Part shown: positions 5,835 through 29,647 of the stretch, one piece after another | Layout of the letters: the number at the start of each line of letters is the position of its first letter | Position numbering within the stretch: position 1 is the first letter of the stretch | Notes under the pieces: generated by a model | The model's input: only the letters and a program-made list of their open reading frames with translations | Told to the model about the DNA's origin: nothing | Databases searched by the model: none | DNA from: a virus | Reading direction: 5' to 3' (one strand) | Virus record (IMG/VR): IMGVR_UViG_3300047550_004126 | Coordinates: 1-30,088 of that record | DNA length: 30,088 bases | Made by a program: the position numbers and the translations under genes

Positions 5835-7460
5835 CTAAATTTGAACAACTTTTTTAACTAAAAGAGAATCACTTTTCTTGTCTCGTTCTCCTTGAATCAA
5901 GACAGTATTGCTCTCTTTTAACAAAGAATGAAAATCCTTGTACACATTAGGAAAACAGATAACATCATCTATTTTTCCTGTTGAATCAGATATTGATAAA
6001 AAACACATTCTTGAACCCGGTGTTTTTCCAGCTTTAGTAACTACCTCTTTACATCTTCTTACTTCGACACCAAATACCATATAACCATTTTTCCCATCTA
6101 AATATTCTTTGCATGTAGTATTTGATTCACTTGTATCACAAGAATCAGTTGGATTGTATGTCAAAGAAACACCAAGCAAATCTTTTTCTACCCAAGAAAT
6201 CCAACTTGGTATATCTACTAATGGAGATGGTGGATTTTTAATAACTGAAGCAATGCTTTTTAAAACATCTACTCTTTTGGAAGAAGAACAGCAACCGCCT
6301 TCTTTTTTAATTTTTGCAGAATTTAAAATCATATCGGGAATATTTGTTATTTGAACATTTTCTTTAATCCAAGCTTTTTCTTTTTCTGTTAATTCATTCC
6401 AAGCATTAAATTCAGCAAGGAATAATTTTCTATTTGAACCAAATTTTCTTAGTGCGTTTACAGAAATTAGTTTTTCAATACTTGACTTAGGCATCAAATC
6501 AGAAATCTTAACCACAAATTCTTCCCAAGTTTTTATTTCTTTTCCATAAGTTTGCATACAAGATTTTATTTTTTCAAATTGGGAATGTCCAATTCCTTTC
6601 ACATCGGTTATGCCAAACCATATTGATATTCCATCAGTATAAAAATTACTGTTTAAAACCATTAAGTCTGGAGATTGTACTGATATGTTAAATTTTTTTG
6701 CATCTTCAATAAGATCAGATATTTCAAGCTGACTATCTGCTTTGTCTTTGGCATAAAAAAGCCAGCTAGTAAAAAACTGTACTGGGAAATGACTTTTTAA
6801 ATAAGCAGTATCATATCCAGTTAGACCATAACAACAACTGTGACTGCGGTTGAACGAATATTTTTGACTTTGTTCAATCCAACCGAATATTTCTTCTGCT
6901 TGATCATCACTAACAACTTTTGTTTTTTTAGCACCATCAATAAACATTTTTTTACATTTTGCCATTTCGCTGGAAGACTTTTTTCCCATTGCCTTACGAA
7001 GCATATCTGCTTCTTGAAGAGTAAAACCAGCAATTACTCTAGATAACTCCATCGACTGTTCTTGGAATACTAAAGATCCATATGTTGATTTCAAAACTTC
7101 GTCTACTGCTGGATGATAAGACTCTACAGATTCTTCAAAGTTAGCTCTTCTGCAATAATGTGCAGTCATACTTACACCTTTGTCATCAACTCCTTTTAAT
7201 GCACCGGGTCGTATTAAAGCACCCAAAGCAGTTAAATGTTCTACACTTTTAGGTTTTAATTTTTTTGCCCATTGTTTCCCAAGATCTGATTCTAATTGAA
7301 AAACACCCTTAGTATCACCTCTTGCAAAAATATTCCAAGCATTTTCGCAAGAAGGTAGATTATTAGCATCAACATCTAGTAGAGGCAAAGCACCTTTTGT
7401 CAATGGTTCGCCTATGATTGGAAAACTACAACCGCAAGAAAATTGATATTTTTTTGTCAT
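5835..7460 (-). CDS. dnaE: DNA polymerase III alpha, C-terminal part (fingers to OB domain)
   Basis: The protein has 541 residues. From about residue 38 it aligns with the part of bacterial DnaE that follows the palm: GDTKGVFQLESD, an RPGALKG segment, YGSLVFQEQSMELSRVIAGF, ADMLRKAMGKK, and KYSFNRSHSCCYGLTGYDTA, all landmarks of the fingers region. A helix-hairpin-helix-type region follows, and the last 85 residues form an OB fold (MVFGVEVRRCKEV to VLIQGERD). None of the three catalytic aspartates is here; all lie in the N-terminal half encoded at 8373-10289, so the two proteins must assemble. The first ~30 residues contain C9-x-C11 and do not match canonical DnaE. The stop is TAG, and the SSB ATG lies in the same frame three codons later. 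Confidence 0.92.
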   Translation of the reverse strand: MTKKYQFSCGCSFPIIGEPLTKGALPLLDVDANNLPSCENAWNIFARGDTKGVFQLESDLGKQWAKKLKPKSVEHLTALGALIRPGALKGVDDKGVSMTAHYCRRANFEESVESYHPAVDEVLKSTYGSLVFQEQSMELSRVIAGFTLQEADMLRKAMGKKSSSEMAKCKKMFIDGAKKTKVVSDDQAEEIFGWIEQSQKYSFNRSHSCCYGLTGYDTAYLKSHFPVQFFTSWLFYAKDKADSQLEISDLIEDAKKFNISVQSPDLMVLNSNFYTDGISIWFGITDVKGIGHSQFEKIKSCMQTYGKEIKTWEEFVVKISDLMPKSSIEKLISVNALRKFGSNRKLFLAEFNAWNELTEKEKAWIKENVQITNIPDMILNSAKIKKEGGCCSSSKRVDVLKSIASVIKNPPSPLVDIPSWISWVEKDLLGVSLTYNPTDSCDTSESNTTCKEYLDGKNGYMVFGVEVRRCKEVVTKAGKTPGSRMCFLSISDSTGKIDDVICFPNVYKDFHSLLKESNTVLIQGERDKKSDSLLVKKVVQI

Positions 7461-7464
7461 ATTA

Positions 7465-8103
7465 TTATTTCTTAAATGAGTCTTTAAATTTAACTTTCGG
7501 GTAAATAGATCTGTGTAATTTTAAAAAGTAAGTTATTAAATCTGCTGTTTGCTCTACATCTACTAGTGCATCATGTGCATTAGCTTTAGACATACCAAAA
7601 TGATCTCTGATTGTATCCATTTTCATATTTGGCATATCATCAGAATTTTCAAACCAAAGCAACATTATTTCATCTAAATCAAACATATTTCTTCTGTTGA
7701 AATATGGCTGAACAGAATCTTTTTCAATATAGCCCAATTGACAACATATTCTTTGAAAAATTGGCATATCAAAAAATCTGATATTTTTTCCTGCTGGAAT
7801 AGGAGCCATTATATTGCTTTTACCAGAAGAAAATGTAGATATAAAATCAATAAATTTTCCCCACACTACATCTAGAGTTGGGGCTAAAGATAATTCTTCT
7901 TTTGTTTTTTTGTTAACGGCAAGTGCTGCTTCTTGAAGATTGTTAAAATCTAATGGTTTTACCAAACTGCTAAATACAGCATTGTTTATTGGTTGTAAAG
8001 TTTTTCTATTTATTGCTTTTGCAGCTATTTGTATAACTTCACATTTTTCTATATCTAAAGATCCTGTTTCAAAATCAAATACTATAATTGTATTACTCTT
8101 CAC
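7465..8103 (-). CDS. dnaQ: DnaQ-like 3'-5' exonuclease (DEDDh)
   Basis: The protein has 212 residues. Motif Exo I is VFDFETGSLD (D and E of the DxE pair); Exo II includes GKNIRFFDMPIF; Exo III is NAHDALVDVEQT, with the His and Asp spaced as in the DEDDh group. This is the epsilon/RNase T-type fold that removes mismatched 3' ends. The gene lies between the two halves of the polymerase gene, so it is probably the proofreading subunit. The start is GTG at 8103-8101, with GGAAG 8 nt upstream inside the preceding gene, which it overlaps by 11 nt; no ATG is near. The C-terminal residues after Exo III are Lys-rich (YPKVKFKDSFKK). Confidence 0.9.
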   Translation of the reverse strand: MKSNTIIVFDFETGSLDIEKCEVIQIAAKAINRKTLQPINNAVFSSLVKPLDFNNLQEAALAVNKKTKEELSLAPTLDVVWGKFIDFISTFSSGKSNIMAPIPAGKNIRFFDMPIFQRICCQLGYIEKDSVQPYFNRRNMFDLDEIMLLWFENSDDMPNMKMDTIRDHFGMSKANAHDALVDVEQTADLITYFLKLHRSIYPKVKFKDSFKK

Positions 8104-8380
8104 TATTTTCTTCCTTTATTTTAAGTTCAATTGATCCGTCTATTTTTTGTTCAATTTTTAACTCTAAATCCTCATCTTCTGCTGAATCTAAAATATCTTT
8201 TTCTAAAATTATTTCACCTCCATTTTGTATTGCTATAGCCTTTAATAGTTTATTAGCCTGTTTTGTCAAGTCTTTTTTTAAAGATGCACAATCTGAAAGA
8301 GCATCAAGAAGTCCAGACTGTTGAACGATTAATTTGCTTATTATTGATATTTCAAGAGCATTGTCGTTTATTTCACTCAT
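8093..8380 (-). CDS. Small acidic protein between polymerase halves, unknown
   Basis: The protein has 95 residues and is rich in Glu, Asp, Lys and Ile. The N-terminal 55 residues look helical with leucine-type spacing (ISIISKLIVQQSGLLDALSD, then SLKKDLTKQANKLLKAIA), suggesting a coiled coil or helical bundle. The C-terminal part alternates acidic and hydrophobic residues (LELKIEQKIDG). I recognise no family. It overlaps the 3' end of the polymerase N-half by 8 nt and the exonuclease start by 11 nt, and an AAAGG site precedes the ATG, so it is translated as part of the polymerase set. A role in holding the split polymerase or exonuclease together is possible but is inference only. Confidence 0.7.
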   Translation of the reverse strand: MSEINDNALEISIISKLIVQQSGLLDALSDCASLKKDLTKQANKLLKAIAIQNGGEIILEKDILDSAEDEDLELKIEQKIDGSIELKIKEENSEE

Positions 8381-10289
8381 TTGAATTGCCTTTCAAAAGA
8401 TTTATACAACCCATTATTTTGTCTAAAACAGCAACTCCTAATATATCAAATTTTACCATACCAATTGATTCTAAATCCGACATTTCTAAACCAGCAATCA
8501 TTTGTTTTGTTTTTTTATCAAATGTCATAGGACAAACTTCTGGCAAAGGAAGGTTACTTATAACTATTCCTGCTGCGTGTTTACCTTGACTTCTTTTTGT
8601 TCCTTCTAATCGTATAGCCTGAGAAAACTCTTTAGCCAATTTTCCAGATAAACTTCCGTCTGGTTCTATCTTACAATATTCAGACAGCTTGTCAGGTATA
8701 TTTTCTAGTGCCCATTTTATTATAGATGAATCACCATCTTCATCTTTCATTTCTTGTAACTGTTCAGAAATCTCAGATTCGTCCGGTATATGTTTTGTTA
8801 TATTATTACTTTCGTCAAATGAAAAACCATGCACTCTCAGAACATCTTTCAATGAGCCTCTACCCTGCATTCTACTAAAAGTAATCATTTGACAAACATT
8901 ATTAGTTCCATATTTTGACTTAATATAATCTATCACCTTGTCTCGTTTGGCAATAGGAAAGTCACAATCAATGTCAGGAAGACTAATCCTATTAGGTGCA
9001 TTCCTACCAGCATTGTAGAACCTCTCAAAAACTAAGCCATGTTTAATTGGATCAACTTCAGTTATTCCTAATAGATAAGATATCATGCATCCAGCACCAG
9101 AACCTCTGCCTCTACCTATAATCCAACCTTGTTTTTTTGCCCAGTTACAATAGTCTTGAACAATTAAAAAATATCCAGCCAAACCAGAGTTATCGATAAC
9201 TTCTAGTTCATGCTTAACTCTTTCCGAATATTTTGTATATTCTTCTGTTTTTGGTTTTATGTGACTAAAACGCTTGTGCCAACCTTCTCTGCATAACTGT
9301 CTTAAATAATCAATTTGAGAAAGAGAATTGGGGCAATTAAAGTTTGGTATTGATGGTTGTTTTATGACAGAATAGCTTTCACACATATTGTCAATAAGAG
9401 AGCAATTTTCAATTTCGTCTTTTTCATGAAATTTAGATATTTCTTCTATTCTTGGAAGATAATATTTATTAGATTTAAAAAAAACAGACAGTCCAAAATC
9501 TTCGTTTTTTTCTAACTTTGAATTTACATTCTTTAAAGTTGTTTCCATTGAAGAACATAATAATACTCTTTGATCTGGAGCATCTTCGACATTAACATAA
9601 TGAACATCTGGAGTTGCTATTTTTTTAAATTTAAACTTATTGCAAAGTTCTCTTAGACATTCTGCAATCACTTGTGAGGCAACTAAATTTTCTCTATCAA
9701 ACAATTGTATTTCAACAAAAAAATTATTTTCTCCAAATATGTCTATATATTCTAAACATATTGTTTTAGCTATATTTAACCAGTCTGGATTAAGCATTTC
9801 TTTGATTTCATCATAATCTGTTCTTGAATATGCTTCTTTATGATCATAAAACAAGCTGTTTGCTAAATGTGTTCCTGGATGACCAGAAAATGCTATAAGA
9901 TCAGAACAATTGCCCTTAAAATCAACAATGTTTAGTCTTGGTTTGTAATAAAAATTTTCTAATGAACTAGCCATAGATGACAAATTAATTAAATTTTTCC
10001 ATCCATTTATATTTTTGGCAAGAACACACAGATGAGTTAGTGCTGAATTTTCTTTACTTTGATCACTTGCTGGCTTGCTACATATATAAAACTCACAACC
10101 TATGATTGGTTTTATTCCATTTGAAATACATGCTTTTGAAAAAGCAATTGCACCAGATATTGTTCCATGATCAGTAATAGCACAAGAATTATATCCAAGC
10201 TCTTTGCATTTTTTTGCCAGATGTTCTGGCTTACTAAGTCCATCTAATAAACTATAATGAGTATGACAATGCAATGGTATCCAATTCAT
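8373..10289 (-). CDS. dnaE: DNA polymerase III alpha, N-terminal part (PHP and palm)
   Basis: The protein has 638 residues from the ATG at 10289; a TTG two codons earlier is unlikely because AAGGA sits 8 nt before this ATG. The PHP domain has intact metal ligands: H7-x-H9, ITDHG near 40, E66 in GCEFY, H137 in FSGH, and D228-x-H230 (TPDVHYVN). The palm has GRGRGSGAGCMISYLLGIT and then the catalytic pair in LPDIDCDF (D439, D441), with the third Asp in VKFDILG (D615). The protein ends about 20 residues later, exactly where canonical DnaE would continue into the fingers, which are encoded separately at 5835-7460. The intact PHP site suggests it may retain its own exonuclease activity in addition to the DnaQ-like protein. 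Confidence 0.94.
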   Translation of the reverse strand: MNWIPLHCHTHYSLLDGLSKPEHLAKKCKELGYNSCAITDHGTISGAIAFSKACISNGIKPIIGCEFYICSKPASDQSKENSALTHLCVLAKNINGWKNLINLSSMASSLENFYYKPRLNIVDFKGNCSDLIAFSGHPGTHLANSLFYDHKEAYSRTDYDEIKEMLNPDWLNIAKTICLEYIDIFGENNFFVEIQLFDRENLVASQVIAECLRELCNKFKFKKIATPDVHYVNVEDAPDQRVLLCSSMETTLKNVNSKLEKNEDFGLSVFFKSNKYYLPRIEEISKFHEKDEIENCSLIDNMCESYSVIKQPSIPNFNCPNSLSQIDYLRQLCREGWHKRFSHIKPKTEEYTKYSERVKHELEVIDNSGLAGYFLIVQDYCNWAKKQGWIIGRGRGSGAGCMISYLLGITEVDPIKHGLVFERFYNAGRNAPNRISLPDIDCDFPIAKRDKVIDYIKSKYGTNNVCQMITFSRMQGRGSLKDVLRVHGFSFDESNNITKHIPDESEISEQLQEMKDEDGDSSIIKWALENIPDKLSEYCKIEPDGSLSGKLAKEFSQAIRLEGTKRSQGKHAAGIVISNLPLPEVCPMTFDKKTKQMIAGLEMSDLESIGMVKFDILGVAVLDKIMGCINLLKGNSNE

Positions 10290-10298
10290 ATACAATCC

Positions 10299-15747: not shown

Positions 15748-16243
15748 TATTTTTCCTTTTGCTATAAGCTAAATTTGAAAACATATCAGAAACTTTTTCG
15801 ATCCTAATCGGTAAATACTCTATTCTATCAATTCTTGCTTGTATCTTAACAGATAAAGATTTTATTTTTTGTGCATAGTCATCATCTTTGACTGCTAATG
15901 CCATTCGTTCTTCTGGAGAAAAATATCTGTACTCAGTAAGTCTTTCTGATACTGTTTTAAATATTTTTTCATTGCACCATCTAAGTTTTGATTTCTCTCT
16001 GTTTATTGTTCGTGATAAATGAAATGAAAAATTATTTAATAAAACACATGCTTCAGAACAATCTTCTGCTGTCATTTTTCTTATTTCTTCTTGAGACAAG
16101 TATAAAAATTTCATGCATGGGAATTCAATATTGTTTGGGATAGATGACAACCCAATAGATTTTTCGTAATTATCTAGTAAAGAATCGAATCTTTCTTCCT
16201 CGCTAATTTTCGATTCTTTTTCTCCATTGTTGTTCTGATTCAT
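15731..16243 (-). CDS. Unknown helical protein
   Basis: The protein has 170 residues and is strongly charged and predicted mostly helical. The middle has RKMTAEDCSEACVLLNNFSF and then a basic stretch (NREKSKLRWCNEKIF); the C-terminal 40 residues (IKSLSVKIQARIDRIEYLPI) suggest a coiled coil. It is of the kind encoded near DNA-metabolism genes in large phages, but I cannot name a family. No clear Shine-Dalgarno precedes its ATG, and it begins 41 nt inside the upstream nuclease-like gene, so its translation may depend on coupling. Its 3' end overlaps the next gene by 17 nt. Confidence 0.6.
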   Translation of the reverse strand: MNQNNNGEKESKISEEERFDSLLDNYEKSIGLSSIPNNIEFPCMKFLYLSQEEIRKMTAEDCSEACVLLNNFSFHLSRTINREKSKLRWCNEKIFKTVSERLTEYRYFSPEERMALAVKDDDYAQKIKSLSVKIQARIDRIEYLPIRIEKVSDMFSNLAYSKRKNNERNF

Positions 16244-16604
16244 TGAATGGTAACTCTATTAAAAAAATATTGTTTATTGAACACCACTCTGCTTTATTTT
16301 TATCATTTCTTTTTGAGTGATAAAAATTTAATACTGTATTGTGAAAAAACGGTATGTATTTATAATGTTGCTCCCCATGAACTTCAATTATTGTTTTTCG
16401 TAATGGCAACCAAAAATCAGCAGTCAATCCATTAGATCCAGGCAAACTTACTTCTTCCAATATTCTGTCCATCGGATAAATAGACTTTAGAATATTTCTA
16501 GCGAGTAAATGCAAAGAAGACCTATTTTTTTCATCGTCATAATCTGGCATATTACCAGAAAATGTCCAAGAGTAAGTCTTTCCATCAAGACCCATTACTT
16601 TCAC
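16203..16604 (-). CDS. Small PD-(D/E)xK nuclease-like protein
   Basis: The protein has 133 residues. The start is GTG at 16604, forming a GTGA overlap with the RecA-like gene's TGA, with AAGG about 10 nt upstream; the ATG three codons later lacks spacing support. The core LTADFWLPLRKTIIEVHGEQ (D63, E74, H76) followed by H80 resembles the DF...IEVxGxxH signature of the Vsr/DUF559-type restriction endonuclease fold. A late strand NNIFLIELPFNESE, with KNKAEW before it, fits the same fold. The N-terminal 40 residues are unassigned. It probably cuts DNA, perhaps as a recombination or mismatch nuclease given its RecA neighbour; the substrate is unknown. Family-level confidence is moderate. Confidence 0.7.
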   Translation of the reverse strand: MKVMGLDGKTYSWTFSGNMPDYDDEKNRSSLHLLARNILKSIYPMDRILEEVSLPGSNGLTADFWLPLRKTIIEVHGEQHYKYIPFFHNTVLNFYHSKRNDKNKAEWCSINNIFLIELPFNESEQQWRKRIEN

Positions 16605-18625
16605 GATATAATTGCCTTAATTTCTTTTTCTAGTGCAGATATCCACTTTGGATTATCAGACAATAACTTATACATTTTTTCTGCACCTTGAGTCTTAACC
16701 AACTTTATTGTTGCTTCATCCCAAACTTCAGACTTTAACAATTTTAAATGTCTTTCCATATAGTCTAAAGTCATCCAAGCACCAGCTTTACTAATTAATC
16801 CTAGCTGACAACCAAGATTTATAGCTTCGTAAATATTGTCTATTCCTATACCATATCGTATATAACTATCAACTTCCATTCCTGGAGAACCTAAAGCACA
16901 TGATTCTATCAACCAATGTACTTGTTGCCCAATTTGTTTGTCTTTACCTTCACCACCAACATTCCATGCTTTATCAAATTTAACTCTCATTTGAATATCT
17001 GCTTGGTATTGTAATGTTCTAGAACCTTTTTCTGTGTATCCACCAAACATGCCCTGAGACTGTGTTAAGTGCATAATTGCCCAAACCATACAGTTTTGAA
17101 CCGGAACTATATTAGCTGCTTGCCTACAAAAACCAGCGAATAATTTGTTTCCAGCACCTCTATTTTCATAACCAATTCCTTCATCCATTTCTTTTTCGTC
17201 ACACAATGCGGAAACACTATCTATAATGATTAAACTTCCTGGATGCGTATTGATTGCTTTAAATGCTAAATTAAGATAATCTTTTGCTGTAAGTATTTTT
17301 TCCTGCGTAGATCTATAAATTGTCATTTTATCTAAATTAAGGCCAGCTATGCCCTTTAAATTCATGGGCTTTAGTCTTCCTTCAATATTTAAATAATATA
17401 CATGCCTACCACCATTCTCTTCTTTTTGACATTGAGCAGCAAAAGATAATGCTGTAAGTGTATTGTGAGTGACAATAAAGTTATCAGTAAGATATAAACC
17501 ATGACTTGCTTGTATTGATATACAAACACATTTTTCTTTTCTTGTTTTAACTATTGAAACAATTTTTCTTGATAAATTATTTTTTACATCTTTTTTATTA
17601 AATTTTTCTTTTCTAAAAAGAAATAAATCTTTTTTGTTCTTTATTATAACTGAACAATAGTAAATAAAATTATTTTCATTGTTCTTATGTCTTGAAACCA
17701 AACATATACCACCAAGAGATTGAACCAATGATTTAAAGTCTTCAGCAAATTGCTTTGATGATACCGTAACTATTGGAGTTTCTTTCTTTGTTATATGTGC
17801 AAAGCTCAATATTGCTGTTAGTAATGCATATCTTTGGTCAATAGAATTATATAAATAGTTTGAAGGTATAAATTTGTCTTTTGTTTTTTTGCCATAAAGA
17901 CCTAATTCTTTTAGTTCTTTAGTTAAATTGAAGTTTATTTGATTGTCTTTTAAAGAATAAGATATGTTATTGTCTTTCATTAATTGACATACATAATTTA
18001 AAACATTTTGATTTTCTATAGTAGCAATAATTTTTTTATTAAAGAATCCTATAGTTAATAAAACCCCAAAAACAAAAGGGTCGATTGGAACTTTAACTTC
18101 ATCAAAATCTACTGGTTTAGTTATTGGAATAGAGTATTTTGCTTTAGAACTGCTACCTATAAATATTTTATCTTTAAAATTTTTAAGCATTACTGTTTTA
18201 TAAGTTTTTTGTTCTCTTGTTTTGATATTCCATAAATGTTCTTCTCCACATTCTGCTGTAGAACCATCAGAAAATGTTATTGTATAAACATCTTTTATGC
18301 CTTGTGGATATATACCAGTAACTAAAGACTTTTTGCCGTTTGGACAACAAACGGTGTCGCCTATTCTAATATCACCTATTCTTTTTGGGCCTTTACTTGT
18401 ATATACAATTGCGGATATTGGCTGTTCTTTTCCGCTTTTTGGATGCCCAGAACAAGTAATCCAAGAACCTTCTGGTATTCCACCATGAAGACCAAGATTT
18501 AATGCAGGAGAGAGTGGTATAACTTTCTTTTCTTCTTCCATTAATTCATTGGCATTGATTGCTATTCCTTTGCCATATTGCTTGTCTACCTCTTTTAAGA
18601 TTTTTTCTAAATGATCATTGCTCAT
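16601..18625 (-). CDS. recA: RecA-like recombinase precursor with intein in the P-loop
   Basis: I choose the ATG at 18625 (AAGGA 8 nt upstream), not the TTG two codons earlier. The 674-residue precursor would splice to about 352 residues, close to normal RecA length. The N-extein gives LNLGLHGGIPEGSW and GHPKSGK; the C-extein begins TLTALSF, so splicing rebuilds a Walker A box (GHPKSGKT). Walker B is SLIIIDSVSALCDEKE. The L1/L2 region (ESMF-like) reads AIMHLTQSQGMFGGYTEKGS and is shared with RecA/UvsX families. Strand exchange and recombination-dependent replication are the expected roles. Until the intein leaves, the ATP site is broken, so the precursor should be inactive. The gene starts 11 nt inside the upstream unknown gene. 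Confidence 0.9.
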   Translation of the reverse strand: MSNDHLEKILKEVDKQYGKGIAINANELMEEEKKVIPLSPALNLGLHGGIPEGSWITCSGHPKSGKEQPISAIVYTSKGPKRIGDIRIGDTVCCPNGKKSLVTGIYPQGIKDVYTITFSDGSTAECGEEHLWNIKTREQKTYKTVMLKNFKDKIFIGSSSKAKYSIPITKPVDFDEVKVPIDPFVFGVLLTIGFFNKKIIATIENQNVLNYVCQLMKDNNISYSLKDNQINFNLTKELKELGLYGKKTKDKFIPSNYLYNSIDQRYALLTAILSFAHITKKETPIVTVSSKQFAEDFKSLVQSLGGICLVSRHKNNENNFIYYCSVIIKNKKDLFLFRKEKFNKKDVKNNLSRKIVSIVKTRKEKCVCISIQASHGLYLTDNFIVTHNTLTALSFAAQCQKEENGGRHVYYLNIEGRLKPMNLKGIAGLNLDKMTIYRSTQEKILTAKDYLNLAFKAINTHPGSLIIIDSVSALCDEKEMDEGIGYENRGAGNKLFAGFCRQAANIVPVQNCMVWAIMHLTQSQGMFGGYTEKGSRTLQYQADIQMRVKFDKAWNVGGEGKDKQIGQQVHWLIESCALGSPGMEVDSYIRYGIGIDNIYEAINLGCQLGLISKAGAWMTLDYMERHLKLLKSEVWDEATIKLVKTQGAEKMYKLLSDNPKWISALEKEIKAIIS
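17462..18427 (-). mobile_element. Class 3-like intein in RecA, degenerate LAGLIDADG domain
   Basis: This is a 322-residue insertion from Glu (codon 18427-18425) to Asn (17464-17462), between Lys and Thr of the Walker A box. It starts EQPISAIVYTSKGPKRIGDI and not with Cys, Ser or Ala. Motif B has the pattern H-L-W (EEHLWNIKTR, W66). Motif F has Cys before Ile (VCISIQ, C302). The end is IVTHN, with Thr at position 320. W, C and T in these blocks form the WCT triad that defines class 3 inteins, which use the block-F Cys as the first nucleophile, so the missing N-terminal nucleophile is expected. The middle is LAGLIDADG-like, but both catalytic acids are lost (LLTIGFF and AILSFAH), so homing is probably dead. 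Confidence 0.88.
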
Positions 18626-19049
18626 TATCAAGTTCCTTTATTTTTTTAACCAATGATTTTGAATTTTGAAATGTTTTCCTTATAGGTAGTTCTACCGAGC
18701 TTTTTGCCTCAGTCAAGTCAGAAATTTGTTTAAAGTTTTTTTGTTCTATTTCAATCAACTTTTTAAGCCAAGGAGCACCCAAAGAAAATATTTTTTTACC
18801 TTCTTTAGATCTTAAGGCTTTAGATACAATTGCAGAATCATATTGTTTTAAAAGGTTGTTTGCTAAATTTAATTGCTTGAAAAACTCTTTCTTCCATCTT
18901 GGTTTATTCCAAAATTTAGAAGCTAATTCTTCATTGTTTTGTTTAGCTGTTCTTTCACACATGACTTCGGCAAGAAATTGTGCTGGAGTTATCCATCCAC
19001 CACCATGCCTAGATTCATACCTACTGTCATCAGTTCTTTTTTTTGCCAT
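18615..19049 (-). CDS. Unknown protein upstream of the RecA-like gene
   Basis: The protein has 144 residues, Lys-rich and mostly helical. It has a Gly/His/Trp patch near the start (RHGGGWITPAQFLAEVMCER) and a central basic region (NKPRWKKEFFKQLNLANNLL). No catalytic motif is visible. The ATG follows the TAA of the upstream gene by one base (TAATATG), and no strong Shine-Dalgarno is present, so translation is probably coupled. The 3' end overlaps the RecA-like gene by 11 nt. A recombination or repair accessory role would fit its position, but the sequence alone does not show this. Confidence 0.65.
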   Translation of the reverse strand: MAKKRTDDSRYESRHGGGWITPAQFLAEVMCERTAKQNNEELASKFWNKPRWKKEFFKQLNLANNLLKQYDSAIVSKALRSKEGKKIFSLGAPWLKKLIEIEQKNFKQISDLTEAKSSVELPIRKTFQNSKSLVKKIKELDNEQ

Positions 19050-21976: not shown

Positions 21977-24900
21977 TCATATTAAACATGCCCCGCCAGC
22001 ACAAGCAAGTTCTCCTTGAATATTTATGCTGGATTTTTCTTCTAATACATTTAGATAGTTAACATCAGAATAACTATCTACTAATTTATTCCACAAATCT
22101 AAATTGTATGCGTCTTTAAGTGCATATGTAGCATATTTAATATTAGAGGAAAAGAAATCAGAAGAATATTTTTCAATTATTTTTTTCCACTCTTTTTGTT
22201 TATCGTCTTTTGGTTCAAAATAACCTAAAGAGCATGAACATGCATCCCACAAAGATTCAAAATTATACTCAGAAAATTTTGGATATATTTCATAAGCCTT
22301 TGATGTGGCTTCAAAACCCCAATTAGTAATTTGTTCTTCTATTGAATATACTGCTGTAAATGGTGCTTGATTATAGTCCTTATCTCCTGTGGCAGCAATC
22401 AAAGATATTCCAGCTAAGTCAGAACGGTTTTTATAAATATACTCTTTAACCTCATCCCATTCATGATCTTGTACATGTATTGTATTAGATACATTATGAT
22501 TGAGTTCTTTTCTAACACACAACTCTTCATTTTTTCCAGAAACAACCCAATTATTGTAAGTAGATACTACATTGTCCAGCATGTTAATAGCAGTTAAATT
22601 TTCCTTAAGTATTGTTCCTTCTTGACTTTGCACACAAAACCTTATGCAATCGTCAGTTTTATTAGATGACCAAACAGATGCCTCACATGCCTGTGGATTT
22701 ATGCTCTTAAAATATTGATATGGAGATTCAAGCTTATTAGCTTGGACAATACGGAAATATCTCTTTGAATGATCTGGATGAATACCAGAAGCAGATCCAA
22801 GAAGAGCAGCAGAATTGCCTTCTGGTTTTACGCAAGTTGTTCTGGCAGCAGGATTTATGTTTAATAGTCTTGCATATTTTTTATTTGTTTCTTTTACTAT
22901 TTCAGCACCTTTTTTCTGAATTTCTGGATTTAAAAGTATTTTTGGGTGGTGCTGCATACCATTTATAGAAACCCCCAATAATGCCTCTTTTTTTGCGATA
23001 AGTTCCGTTATTTGACCCAAGTATGGAAAATTGGTAAAAGATGCTTGTAATGTGCCAATAAACGCAGCAGCAGCACATCTTTCGTAAAAGTCTTCTTCTG
23101 AAGTTATGGTTTTACCATTAATAGTAGATAAATTACAAAAACCCCATCCAGAAAGACCAACCTCATCTTCTGCCATATCGTCTTTACATGTTTCTTTTGT
23201 TGTGATTGGCCCTTCATAGTTTAACAATGCTTGCTCTAATTCTTGAGAATTCTTTTTGTAAAAATGTTTTGTTATCCACGATATTTCGCAGCAGTTATGA
23301 ACATATATACCGTTTGCATCAAAAGCATTAACTTCGGGGATTGTGCAATCAAAAACATCTTGTTTTCCAAAATCACATTTATTTATAATCGTATCTAAAA
23401 AAACAGATCTGTTTGGCATTCTTTTTCTAGAATCAATTATTTCATTTATTTTTGATATTTTATCATTATTTCTAATTTTTATGTTTTTGTTGAATAATTC
23501 TATTGCTTGTCCACTAATATGTAATTCATGTATTGTTTGAGTATAATATTCTTTTGTTGATCCATTGCCATCGGGCATTTTTTTCCAACCTTCTGGAATT
23601 CTATTTTTATAAATTTTACTTAAAATACCAAAAGAGTTTAATATAATTTGCAAATTAACCAAATTGTTATATTGATTAGAAGAAATTCTTAATGAGTTGC
23701 CTTTTTCTGAATTAACAGCAACAGTTCCATCAGCATCAAAATAACCAGCAACTAATCCAGACAAGTATGACCAAGATCCAGTTGTTGCTTTTTTAGACAA
23801 ATGTTTAAATTCATCTTTTTCAATATCAAAACAATCTTTTTCTTGAGCAAAATCATAAAGCTTTTTACTTTGAACAGTAGTATAACTATTTACAAGATCT
23901 GTTTTTTCAGAACAATGAGATCCTTCTATTTTAAATCCAGCCTGATCTATTAAATTATAGCCATCTTTTCTATATTCATATTTATTATCTCCCCACCATT
24001 TAATTTGAGCAGACTGATGGGCAATATTTCCATCCCCTAAAAAAGAACCTAAAAGATATCCTTTTGCATAATCTGAAGAATTTACATCAATATTTCTTTG
24101 TTTAAATTCAGAATGATTATTAATGATTATTTCATCTTCAAAAGTAATATCTTTAGCTTCTTTCCATCCATCAGTTGTTAATATTTGATGGTTTGGAGTA
24201 ACAATTAATTCACGACCAGACGAAAAAGAAAGCTTTATAGTTTCTTTATTTCCAGTTTTCCAGAAACCATTATTCGTAGATTCATATATTGCACCATCAA
24301 CCAATGCGTTGAACTTAGTACCCAATAAGTCTGTAGCAAAAGAACACCCATCTTTAGTTGTGACAATTGTATCTCCAACAACACAGGGATTGCATAATGC
24401 ATCATAATAATCGGCAAAGAAAAATCCTGGCTCGCCAAATTCTTTTGTTGCCTTAAATAAATTTTCAAATACTTCTTTGGGAGTATCTTTTCTGTGCAAC
24501 AACGCAGATATATTTGCTCTAGCTCTTTGAGGATTAGTAAAATACCAATCTCCAGTTTTTGCGTTAATCATCAATTCATCGTCAGCAGAAAACAAAGCTA
24601 TAGTTGCAGATCTACGAACACCACCACTAATTACCGCATCGGCTGAATGCATAACAATATCAAATGCATCAATAGTCCTTAATTGTGTTTGTCCATTTGC
24701 AATACATCTATCAAGTAATTCCCTAATTTTTTCTAAAGCTTTTTCTAATGGCTCATAACCTGGAGCATTACCAATACCGCAACCTAAAGGTGAACCCTTC
24801 TCTCTTATGTCTACATAACTAAAACCAACATCAATATCTTTATATTTTTCAAAACCCTTTATTGGAGTTTCAAAATACGAAGAAAGAAGAACTCCAAGAG

Positions 24901-25360
24901 CATCTGCCCAACCTTCGATTGAATCTTCAACTCTATGAATAAGATGTTGGTAACAACATGTTTCTGGATTTAGTCTAGTGGATGAAAACTTTGGTAATAA
25001 TTCTACATGATGTTTTTGAACACTAAAACCAGTACCAGAACCACAAAGTAATAAATAAAAACATTCTTGAAAAAATCTTAATCTGTCACAATAACTAGCA
25101 GAACAATTAAATATTCTTGCGTTATGTTTTAAAATCGGCTTACCACCAAACTGTAATGCTCTTTGAGAACCAAGTATTTTTTGTTCTTTAATCATACCGT
25201 AATATTTTTCAATATCATTATGCAATGATGGATTAACTTCTACCATCATGTTTTTTATTCTTTCTACGCTTTCTTCCCAAGTTTCTCTTCTTTTTTCTTC
25301 CTCTAACCATCGAGCATATTTTGAAACAGCAGTATATTTTTGCAACTCTTTAATAGACAT
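21977..25360 (-). CDS. nrdJ: Class II (B12-dependent) ribonucleotide reductase precursor with intein
   Basis: The precursor has 1127 residues and would splice to about 763, the size of monomeric adenosylcobalamin-dependent ribonucleoside-triphosphate reductases. Landmarks: FNCSASY (first active-site Cys, C86), CGSGTGFSVQ, SGGVRRSATIALFS, NPC/CEI with the thiyl-radical Cys, FCNLSTING with the second redox Cys (C742 of the precursor), TCVKPEGNSAALLGS, and a C-terminal CAGGAC pair (C1120 and C1125) that would relay electrons. It supplies dNTPs without oxygen dependence if the host provides cobalamin. The ATG has GGAG 7 nt upstream and follows the largest intergenic gap in the window, so it may begin its own transcript. 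No metal-radical subunit (NrdB) is present, as expected for class II. Confidence 0.94.
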   Translation of the reverse strand: MSIKELQKYTAVSKYARWLEEEKRRETWEESVERIKNMMVEVNPSLHNDIEKYYGMIKEQKILGSQRALQFGGKPILKHNARIFNCSASYCDRLRFFQECFYLLLCGSGTGFSVQKHHVELLPKFSSTRLNPETCCYQHLIHRVEDSIEGWADALGVLLSSYFETPIKGFEKYKDIDVGFSYVDIREKGSPLGCGIGNAPGYEPLEKALEKIRELLDRCIANGQTQLRTIDAFDIVMHSADAVISGGVRRSATIALFSADDELMINAKTGDWYFTNPQRARANISALLHRKDTPKEVFENLFKATKEFGEPGFFFADYYDALCNPCVVGDTIVTTKDGCSFATDLLGTKFNALVDGAIYESTNNGFWKTGNKETIKLSFSSGRELIVTPNHQILTTDGWKEAKDITFEDEIIINNHSEFKQRNIDVNSSDYAKGYLLGSFLGDGNIAHQSAQIKWWGDNKYEYRKDGYNLIDQAGFKIEGSHCSEKTDLVNSYTTVQSKKLYDFAQEKDCFDIEKDEFKHLSKKATTGSWSYLSGLVAGYFDADGTVAVNSEKGNSLRISSNQYNNLVNLQIILNSFGILSKIYKNRIPEGWKKMPDGNGSTKEYYTQTIHELHISGQAIELFNKNIKIRNNDKISKINEIIDSRKRMPNRSVFLDTIINKCDFGKQDVFDCTIPEVNAFDANGIYVHNCCEISWITKHFYKKNSQELEQALLNYEGPITTKETCKDDMAEDEVGLSGWGFCNLSTINGKTITSEEDFYERCAAAAFIGTLQASFTNFPYLGQITELIAKKEALLGVSINGMQHHPKILLNPEIQKKGAEIVKETNKKYARLLNINPAARTTCVKPEGNSAALLGSASGIHPDHSKRYFRIVQANKLESPYQYFKSINPQACEASVWSSNKTDDCIRFCVQSQEGTILKENLTAINMLDNVVSTYNNWVVSGKNEELCVRKELNHNVSNTIHVQDHEWDEVKEYIYKNRSDLAGISLIAATGDKDYNQAPFTAVYSIEEQITNWGFEATSKAYEIYPKFSEYNFESLWDACSCSLGYFEPKDDKQKEWKKIIEKYSSDFFSSNIKYATYALKDAYNLDLWNKLVDSYSDVNYLNVLEEKSSINIQGELACAGGACLI
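23294..24385 (-). mobile_element. Intein in NrdJ with intact LAGLIDADG endonuclease
   Basis: This 364-residue insertion runs from Cys (precursor residue 326, codon 24385-24383) to Asn (689, codon 23296-23294). It begins CVVGDTIVTTKDG, has a block-B TPNH motif, and ends ANGIYVHN followed by Cys, so all class 1 splicing residues are present. Two intact dodecapeptides, YLLGSFLGDG and LVAGYFDADG, indicate an active LAGLIDADG homing endonuclease. The insertion lies immediately before the radical-carrying Cys of the NPCxEI loop, so the +1 nucleophile for splicing is also the enzyme's catalytic Cys. RNR genes are a common intein target in phages and bacteria. Confidence 0.93.
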
Positions 25361-27646: not shown

Positions 27647-29647
27647 TTAAATAAGCATAAATAATTTTTTATCAATCAACTGTTCTGGGAAACCATCAAA
27701 ATTACTGTAAGCAAATGTTTCTTTAGCTCTAAGATGTTTTTCAGCATCTTTCTTCCTAACTCTTAGTACCCCAATCGGAAGATTTGATCCATCATCAAAG
27801 TCTTTTAAGTGTCCATGTGCGTCACCCCAACTATTAAGTATGATTGCATATGGATCTGTTGGTCTGTCATCAACACCTATGAAACACATTTGGTGACCCC
27901 AGTTATCTGTTTGGCGATGAAATCCATCAGAAGAAGGTTGCATATCATAACCAATATCACTAGCAGTAGTGCATGGATAACCATTTACAATTGCTTCTAC
28001 AAGTTGATCCCAAGTTTTAATTTGGGCAGCAGACTTGACTGGATGTTTAGTGCCTTCATCTATAAATTTTCTATCTGGTCCTGGTGTATCCCCCCATTTT
28101 TTGGCTATGCTTCCAGAATACTTAGGAACACCATCAAAATTACTACGCAAAACCCCATATTTAATAACAGCATCTGCCATCCAACTCCCAAGAGATCCGT
28201 CTTGACCATTAAGTTGACCACGACCAATTAAAACTCTTCCTGTACCATAAAGATAAGGTGCAAAAACAGGTTCAAATTTTTCATGATCTCCTTTCATTAA
28301 TTTTTCAGTAGCCATAAGATATTCAACTGCGTTCCTAGCACCCCAAGAAACACAATTATATTGAGCAATACCATTAGCTATTAATGTATGTTCTCCTTCA
28401 ACGGTTATACAGAAAACTGGGAAATTTGTAACATGTTCTTTATTTATGTCGATTATTTTTCTAGCAAAACCAAATGGTGTTTTATGGATTTTTAATGTTT
28501 TAGGTTTACTAATTTCATTAGCACCCAAAGACAGAGCATCAAAACCATATAAATCCATTTGACCAGCAGCAACAGTTTGATGTGGGGATTTTTTTCTTTT
28601 TAATGTCATAGGATTAAGATTGCAAGAAAGACATAATCTTGATAAATCATTTAGCAAAGAATCAGAAGATGTTACTCCTATAATCCTTGTTGCTTTTTTA
28701 CTAAAGTGACCATCTCCATCAATCCATCCTCTAATACAAGCCATTTTTACAGTTAAAGGGCTATTGAATATAAAGTAAGGAATTGCTTTATAATAAGTGT
28801 TTCCAGAAATTAATTTCTTAACAAAAGTAGCTAGCTCTGTATTATGTATTTCTACTAATAAAACATTTTGTTTTTTCTTGTGATAATATTTTTTAGCTTC
28901 TAATCCAAATATATTTTTAGTTATAGCTATAATTTCTTCTGCAAAAAGTTCTTCATTAATATTAAAATTAAATGTTATTTTGTTATATTTTCCATTAATA
29001 GCTGTTTTAGTTTTAGAACAACCACCTTCTGCTAAATATAAACCTATAAACCTTGCAAAGTTTTCATCTACTTTTATAGATTTTTCGTTAAAATTTATAT
29101 ATTGATATTCAAAAGATTGAATACCAAAAGGCAAAAGAAGATAATCGCCTTTAGAATAATCTTTAACTTTCTTTTTTCCAAAACCATTAAATTTAAATCT
29201 ATATCCAGAATACGGCATAAATAAAGCATCATGTGTTTCTGTTGCCGTTATAGTTCTATTCCAACCCTTGAGTTTAAAAGTTACTAAATTTCCAGTAAAA
29301 TTTTTGCGAACCAATCCAATAACTTTTCTTGGTTGATTCATATGATTTAATACATACTCACCTTCAGAAATATCTTCAATATTTTTTTCTGTTCCATCTG
29401 CCATAGATATTTTTGTTTGAGCAACAAAGCAATCTCCTATAGCCTGTGGAATATTTTCTGTATCTTTTCCAATTACTTTGCGAACAACCTCATATAGCAT
29501 GACCTTTTTACCTTTACTATCTTGGCTTTTACCATAGATACTAAAGTTTTTAAATGATCCGCTATCTTTAATTAAGTTAAATTCGCTTTCGACAAGTTCT
29601 GGATTATCTTTTCCTGCCCAACCATTTATCTTTGATAGTTCAGACAT
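27647..29647 (-). CDS. Papain-like (C1) cysteine protease precursor with intein
   Basis: The precursor has 666 residues and would splice to about 307. The exteins give IPQAIGD joined to CVSWGARNAVEYL (oxyanion Gln and catalytic Cys), NWGHQMCFIGVDD with the catalytic His (H585), and AIILNSWGDAHG with the catalytic Asn (N605), the papain-family triad in order. There is no signal peptide; the first 65 residues may be a short propeptide-like region. The sequence EPVFAPYLYGTGR to GSLGSWMADAVIKYGVL is typical of C1A-like bacterial and phage peptidases. Given the adjacent DUF5824-like protein, a virion-associated or head-maturation protease is plausible; lysis of peptidoglycan peptides is an alternative. 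AGGTGA, overlapping the previous gene's TAG, precedes the ATG. Confidence 0.85.
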   Translation of the reverse strand: MSELSKINGWAGKDNPELVESEFNLIKDSGSFKNFSIYGKSQDSKGKKVMLYEVVRKVIGKDTENIPQAIGDCFVAQTKISMADGTEKNIEDISEGEYVLNHMNQPRKVIGLVRKNFTGNLVTFKLKGWNRTITATETHDALFMPYSGYRFKFNGFGKKKVKDYSKGDYLLLPFGIQSFEYQYINFNEKSIKVDENFARFIGLYLAEGGCSKTKTAINGKYNKITFNFNINEELFAEEIIAITKNIFGLEAKKYYHKKKQNVLLVEIHNTELATFVKKLISGNTYYKAIPYFIFNSPLTVKMACIRGWIDGDGHFSKKATRIIGVTSSDSLLNDLSRLCLSCNLNPMTLKRKKSPHQTVAAGQMDLYGFDALSLGANEISKPKTLKIHKTPFGFARKIIDINKEHVTNFPVFCITVEGEHTLIANGIAQYNCVSWGARNAVEYLMATEKLMKGDHEKFEPVFAPYLYGTGRVLIGRGQLNGQDGSLGSWMADAVIKYGVLRSNFDGVPKYSGSIAKKWGDTPGPDRKFIDEGTKHPVKSAAQIKTWDQLVEAIVNGYPCTTASDIGYDMQPSSDGFHRQTDNWGHQMCFIGVDDRPTDPYAIILNSWGDAHGHLKDFDDGSNLPIGVLRVRKKDAEKHLRAKETFAYSNFDGFPEQLIDKKLFMLI
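28355..29431 (-). mobile_element. Intein in the cysteine protease with LAGLIDADG endonuclease
   Basis: This 359-residue insertion runs from Cys (residue 73, codon 29431-29429) to Asn (431, codon 28357-28355), immediately before the protease's catalytic Cys. It begins CFVAQTKISMADGTEKNIED, has a block-B TATETH motif, and ends HTLIANGIAQYN followed by Cys. The penultimate residue is Tyr, not the usual His, which may slow or alter the last cleavage step. Two LAGLIDADG motifs are intact (FIGLYLAEGG and IRGWIDGDGHF), so the homing endonuclease may be active. The splicing boundaries are clear because the extein reads as a normal C1 active site once joined. Confidence 0.92.

Follow-up and report, generated by a model that had tools for sequence, protein, structure and literature searches.

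A class 3 intein very probably interrupts the Walker A motif of a phage RecA-like recombinase encoded in the window (the whole stretch analysed, 30,088 nucleotides). Its LAGLIDADG domain has lost the catalytic acids, so that the intein would no longer home by its own nuclease and would be inherited mainly with its phage lineage, the dead domain being kept for structure or for another role.

The gene is a single uninterrupted frame of 676 codons, and its recombinase identity is carried by the outer parts, which match Pfam RecA (9.4e-13), TIGR02012 (6.8e-20, under that model's curated cut-off) and a UvsX-like recombinase PHROG (2.1e-25). Translation probably starts at the ATG at 18625 rather than at the TTG at 18631, because an AAGGA box lies just upstream of the former and close relatives can begin only there. 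The insert splits Walker A in frame between Lys and Thr (GHPKSGK^T), with an N-side flank ending in SGHPKSGK and a C side beginning TLTALSF. As the earlier note had proposed, joining the two flanks would rebuild GHPKSGKT, and with the Walker B motif LIIIDSVSAL the predicted mature protein has both RecA core motifs intact. Intein-free orthologues (L093-L096, L104, L105 and L215-L231) read GK-T unbroken at this point, which fixes the junctions by comparison as well as by motif, and the limits first given for the intein proved exact. Since the arrangement recurs in 36 distinct viral-contig sequences while orthologues without the insert read through, it is not a chance feature.

Table 1. Features of the intein-containing recA gene and its downstream neighbour.
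Feature	Position	Strand	Evidence or comment
RecA-like recombinase precursor gene, intein-interrupted	16601-18631	-	Pfam, NCBIfam and PHROG matches; continuous open frame
Walker A N-extein half, GHPKSGK	18428-18448	-	Sequence
Putative class 3 intein, 322 aa, E1 to N322	17462-18427	-	Intein-free orthologues; invariant ends in 36 relatives
Glu1, non-nucleophilic first residue	18425-18427	-	E in 35/36 relatives, A in 1/36
Block B H64-L65-W66 (B:12 Trp of WCT)	18230-18238	-	H64 and W66 in 36/36; W66 aligns with MsmDnaB1 W67
His64	18236-18238	-	
Trp66	18230-18232	-	
Degenerate LAGLIDADG domain, block C GVLLTIGF, block E TAILSFA	17639-18088 (approximate limits)	-	Catalytic Asp absent in both; model has LAGLIDADG fold
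Block F Cys302 (F:4 Cys of WCT), predicted initiating nucleophile	17522-17524	-	36/36; aligns with MsmDnaB1 C118
Block G T320-H321-N322 (G:5 Thr of WCT, penultimate His, cyclising Asn)	17462-17470	-	36/36; aligns with MsmDnaB1 T137-H138-N139
Thr320	17468-17470	-	
His321/Asn322	17462-17467	-	
Thr+1, C-extein nucleophile and Walker A Thr of mature RecA	17459-17461	-	Invariant THN/T junction in family alignment
Small gene, PHROG homing/HNH endonuclease families	16203-16604	-	PHROG 9084, 1.3e-15; outside the intein system

Class 3 inteins are defined by Trp at B:12, Cys at F:4 and Thr at G:5, together with the lack of the class 1 N-terminal nucleophile (PMC3196547, PMC5050341). The three residues picked out in the earlier note as this triad (W66, C302 and T320) are unchanged in every one of the 36 distinct inteins of the family, as are H64, H321 and N322, and the first residue is Glu in all but one, L107, which has Ala. 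The intein ends in V-T320-H321-N322, and the +1 residue after it carries a hydroxyl (Thr). No Cys or Ser stands at the N-terminal splice site, and the Trp and Cys lie inside blocks B and F, so the original class assignment held. Three positions before the block B His, the intein has Gly61 instead of Thr or Asp (MsmDnaB1 has DxxH), a position at which class 3 inteins vary (our alignment; PMC6195587). In a joint viral intein alignment, the W/C/T triplet was present in 27 of 27 further class 3-type rows (11 of them from the RecA family) and in none of six class 1 rows.

Structural comparisons point the same way. A splicing-domain query made from the N part of relative L015 and the C part of the window intein had gp41-1 with grafted WCT as its top PDB match, with class 3 DnaB inteins also among the best, and its W/C/T residues aligned with W67, C118 and T137 in the crystal structure of M. 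smegmatis DnaB1. AlphaFold2 modelled the intein with a mean pLDDT of 82.7 and a pTM of 0.85, although pLDDT fell below 50 at the C-terminal junction. In Foldseek the model matched full-length LAGLIDADG inteins, and its splicing domain matched class 3 DnaB1, the inteins matched including 6riz, 6riy and 6bs8; the predicted structure is that of the Hedgehog/intein splicing fold. From the fold and from sequence similarity to class 3 crystal structures, we infer that W66, C302 and T320 cluster at the active site.

The intein is probably splicing-competent, and its predicted chemistry is ordinary for class 3. The unspliced precursor could have no ATP-binding P-loop. After folding, Cys302 would attack the Lys-Glu1 peptide bond and hold the N-extein as a branched thioester at block F, from which Thr+1 would then take it. 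Cyclisation of Asn322 would release the intein, and an O-N acyl shift would restore GHPKSGKT and yield an active recombinase.

In active LAGLIDADG homing endonucleases, each of the LAGLIDADG motifs carries one catalytic acid. In the window intein both are missing, with Ile at the block C position and a gap or Ala at that of block E. The block C acid is missing from all 36 relatives, which have Asn, Val, Ala, Ile or Cys instead, and the block E acid from 21 of the 36, the window included. The other class 3 inteins that we examined keep both acids, except L177 (Asn in block C) and L170, a helicase intein of 268 aa (L170:3365-6400) whose LAGLIDADG motifs are unrecognisable and whose endonuclease region appears to have been shrunken or replaced. 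By the known enzyme mechanism, the window copy should not cut DNA, and because the domain lacks its catalytic acids, homing by the intein's own nuclease would have ended, leaving transmission mainly with the phage lineage.

The least expected observation is that this acid-less domain is under strong purifying selection. In ten non-overlapping close pairs (dS 0.16-0.58), dN/dS in the endonuclease region was 0.01-0.18 (each p < 1e-7), and low values were also found in pairs without either acid. Constraint on the exteins was tighter (0.01-0.05), and dN/dS in the splicing domain was well under 1. A structural need in folding or splicing is the simplest account of why the domain would be retained; it is possible that it has acquired a regulatory or DNA-binding role. 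Loss of the acids together with conservation of the domain suggests an element that is fixed and not spreading.

A reading compatible with class 3 membership, though an unlikely one, treats the intein as a domesticated switch: it would delay RecA activity during infection or make it conditional, and the dead endonuclease would act as sensor or hinge. Purifying selection on a catalytically dead domain across 36 relatives would fit it, and there are precedents: in the RadA P-loop inteins of P. horikoshii and T. sibericus a remnant of the endonuclease makes splicing depend on temperature (PMC5790916), and MsmDnaB1, itself of class 3, serves as an oxidative sensor (PMC6195587). However, structural need alone predicts equal conservation, and the L215-L231 orthologues are intein-free. 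We rejected a redox trap of the MsmDnaB1 C48-C118 type, since the partner Cys48 aligns with Val47 in the RecA intein.

The degenerate endonuclease might instead point to an intein that has decayed as a whole. Decayed class 3 inteins are known (PMC3196547), and a non-splicing pseudogene like Arth_1007 would leave RecA inactive. We consider this very improbable here because the catalytic splicing residues are invariant, and the low extein and splicing-domain dN/dS points to continued maintenance of the mature RecA as well as of the splicing domain. Arth_1007, unlike the RecA intein, has vestigial exteins and no Cys F:4 (PMC3196547).

There is also little to recommend mobilisation in trans (collaborative homing) by the small gene directly downstream of recA. 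Its product does match PHROG homing endonuclease and HNH families, but a counterpart occupies the same place beside the intein-free recA genes of L093-L096, L104 and L105. Because intein-free relatives retain that gene, it is most unlikely to be the intein's mobility partner, and we rejected this explanation. Since the gene adjoins recA with or without the intein, its product may be a genuine nuclease of phage recombination.

Inheritance of the intein largely with its phage lineage remains the best reading. Two related groups of viral contigs carry the intein throughout, A (the window, L002, L003, L013 and L107-L123) and B (e.g., L015-L026, L028-L031 and L146). Distances between inteins correlate strongly with those between exteins (Mantel r 0.84, p 0.0001), as mainly vertical inheritance would predict. 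Intein-free RecA orthologues are 59-70% identical, the nearer ones 68-70%. In the RecA tree, built without L104 and L105 because a tree including them had very long branches, the intein-free L215-L231 join group A, the window's clade (96/100), which implies either loss of the intein there or two gains. A single intein-bearing clade was not rejected (AU 0.215), so both histories, one gain with loss in the L215-L231 group or two gains, remain. One 221-kb contig, IMGVR_UViG_3300024509_000007, holds two different intein-free RecA copies (L216 and L226), which are either paralogues or the product of a chimeric assembly.

The intein-bearing family is a group of uncultured phages. The 30,088-base window had no DNA-level match among named phages, and the precursor had no match covering 80% of it among 50,697 phage records. 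Identity of the mature RecA to that of known phages is about 26-28%, and bacterial chromosomes gave only weak and partial matches.

Phylogeny supported the class 3 assignment. In the intein tree 28 class 3 rows grouped together (97/92) with five class 1 rows outside, and the RecA intein family formed a single clade within that group (97/93), sister to the intein in the terminase of Methanosarcina virus MetMV (L180; 99/99). Deep branches in the class 3 part were poorly supported, and the class 1 outgroup branches were long. A pattern search for intein ends joined to canonical RecA turned up three more class 3 inteins at the RecA GK^T site, in other viral RecA proteins (L173, L175 and L177), which fall outside the window's family in the tree, and three class 1 inteins at the same site in other viral RecA proteins (L172, L174 and L176). 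The RecA P-loop is thus a repeated target of both classes. A class 3 intein in a RecA P-loop, which the earlier note took to be possibly new, is no singleton: there are dozens in the window's lineage and separate ones in three unrelated RecA proteins (L173, L175 and L177). The literature searched contained no published class 3 RecA intein. Nor is class 3 the rarest class, as had been assumed, since class 2 had been seen only in KlbA genes (PMC3196547).

It is scarcely credible that the RecA intein is of class 1 (residue-1 nucleophile) or class 2 (attack by the +1 residue on the N-terminal junction) and only resembles class 3: Cys or Ser is missing at position 1, as in class 2, and the L155 intein shows that signatures can mix, but residue 1 is Glu or Ala in this family, the W/C/T residues invariant in it are missing from the class 1 P-loop inteins L172, L174 and L176, the tree places it with class 3, and the host is RecA and C302 invariant, where class 2 has a KlbA host and no block F Cys route. 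L155 itself, a helicase intein with full WCT and Cys at position 1 (CNPID...), may be intermediate between classes 1 and 3 or a hybrid of the two.

Several further inteins were recorded. Class 3 inteins with intact endonuclease motifs split the GDGT nucleotide-binding motif of phage GroEL (L161:3725-6361 and L162:3725-6361, with Pro as first residue) and interrupt a PhoH-like protein at GTGK/T (L163:3188-5878). On the minus strand of the window, a ribonucleotide reductase gene (21977-25360) has a class 1 intein (NP/CVVGDT ... YVHN/C) in which both LAGLIDADG acids are present, and a papain-like cysteine peptidase gene (27647-29647) has a class 1-type intein before the likely catalytic Cys, ending in QYN/C without the usual penultimate His. 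With the ribonucleotide reductase intein added to the others, the window has at least three. DNA polymerase III alpha (5835-10295, minus strand) is encoded by two ORFs, 8373-10295 and 5835-7460, separated by a small gene and an exonuclease-like one; no split-intein motifs were seen at the ends of the two ORFs.

Among the closest known counterparts, the DnaB1 inteins of M. smegmatis (6bs8) and M. chimaera (6rix/6riy) are likewise of class 3, with WCT and no N-terminal nucleophile; MsmDnaB1 also shares the P-loop insertion, and its residues align one by one (PMC6195587, PMC7664689). These are endonuclease-free mini-inteins in DnaB, with Ala1, Ser+1, DxxH in block B and the redox Cys48, whereas the RecA intein has a RecA host, Glu1, Thr+1 and a retained dead endonuclease. 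Outside the family, the MetMV terminase class 3 intein is nearest (32.5% identity, similar GK^T site), but its host is a terminase, it starts with Ala, and both of its LAGLIDADG catalytic Asp are intact. L173, L175 and L177 share the RecA host, P-loop GK^T site and WCT; the endonuclease motifs are intact in L173 and L175, Asn stands in block C of L177, and none of the three groups with the window's family. The P. horikoshii and T. sibericus RadA inteins are alike in having a RecA-family host, a P-loop position and no active homing endonuclease (PMC5790916), but they are class 1 mini-inteins with a Cys nucleophile in archaeal chromosomes. The viral class 1 inteins L172, L174 and L176 agree in host and site and differ in having Cys1, no WCT, a larger size and a place in another clade.

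Judged by its sequence, then, the RecA intein is an addition to class 3 that is unusual in its host protein, starts with an acidic residue and retains a dead but conserved endonuclease. It could tentatively be seen as a permanent, vertically inherited part of the recombinase, with the non-catalytic endonuclease kept as a regulatory or structural module and splicing timing phage RecA activity, though we regard this as doubtful. The uncommon class 3 inteins gain a recombinase among their hosts and a family amenable to experiment, for which intein-free orthologues are ready controls. The dead, conserved endonuclease makes it testable why inteins outlast homing and whether they are kept as switches.
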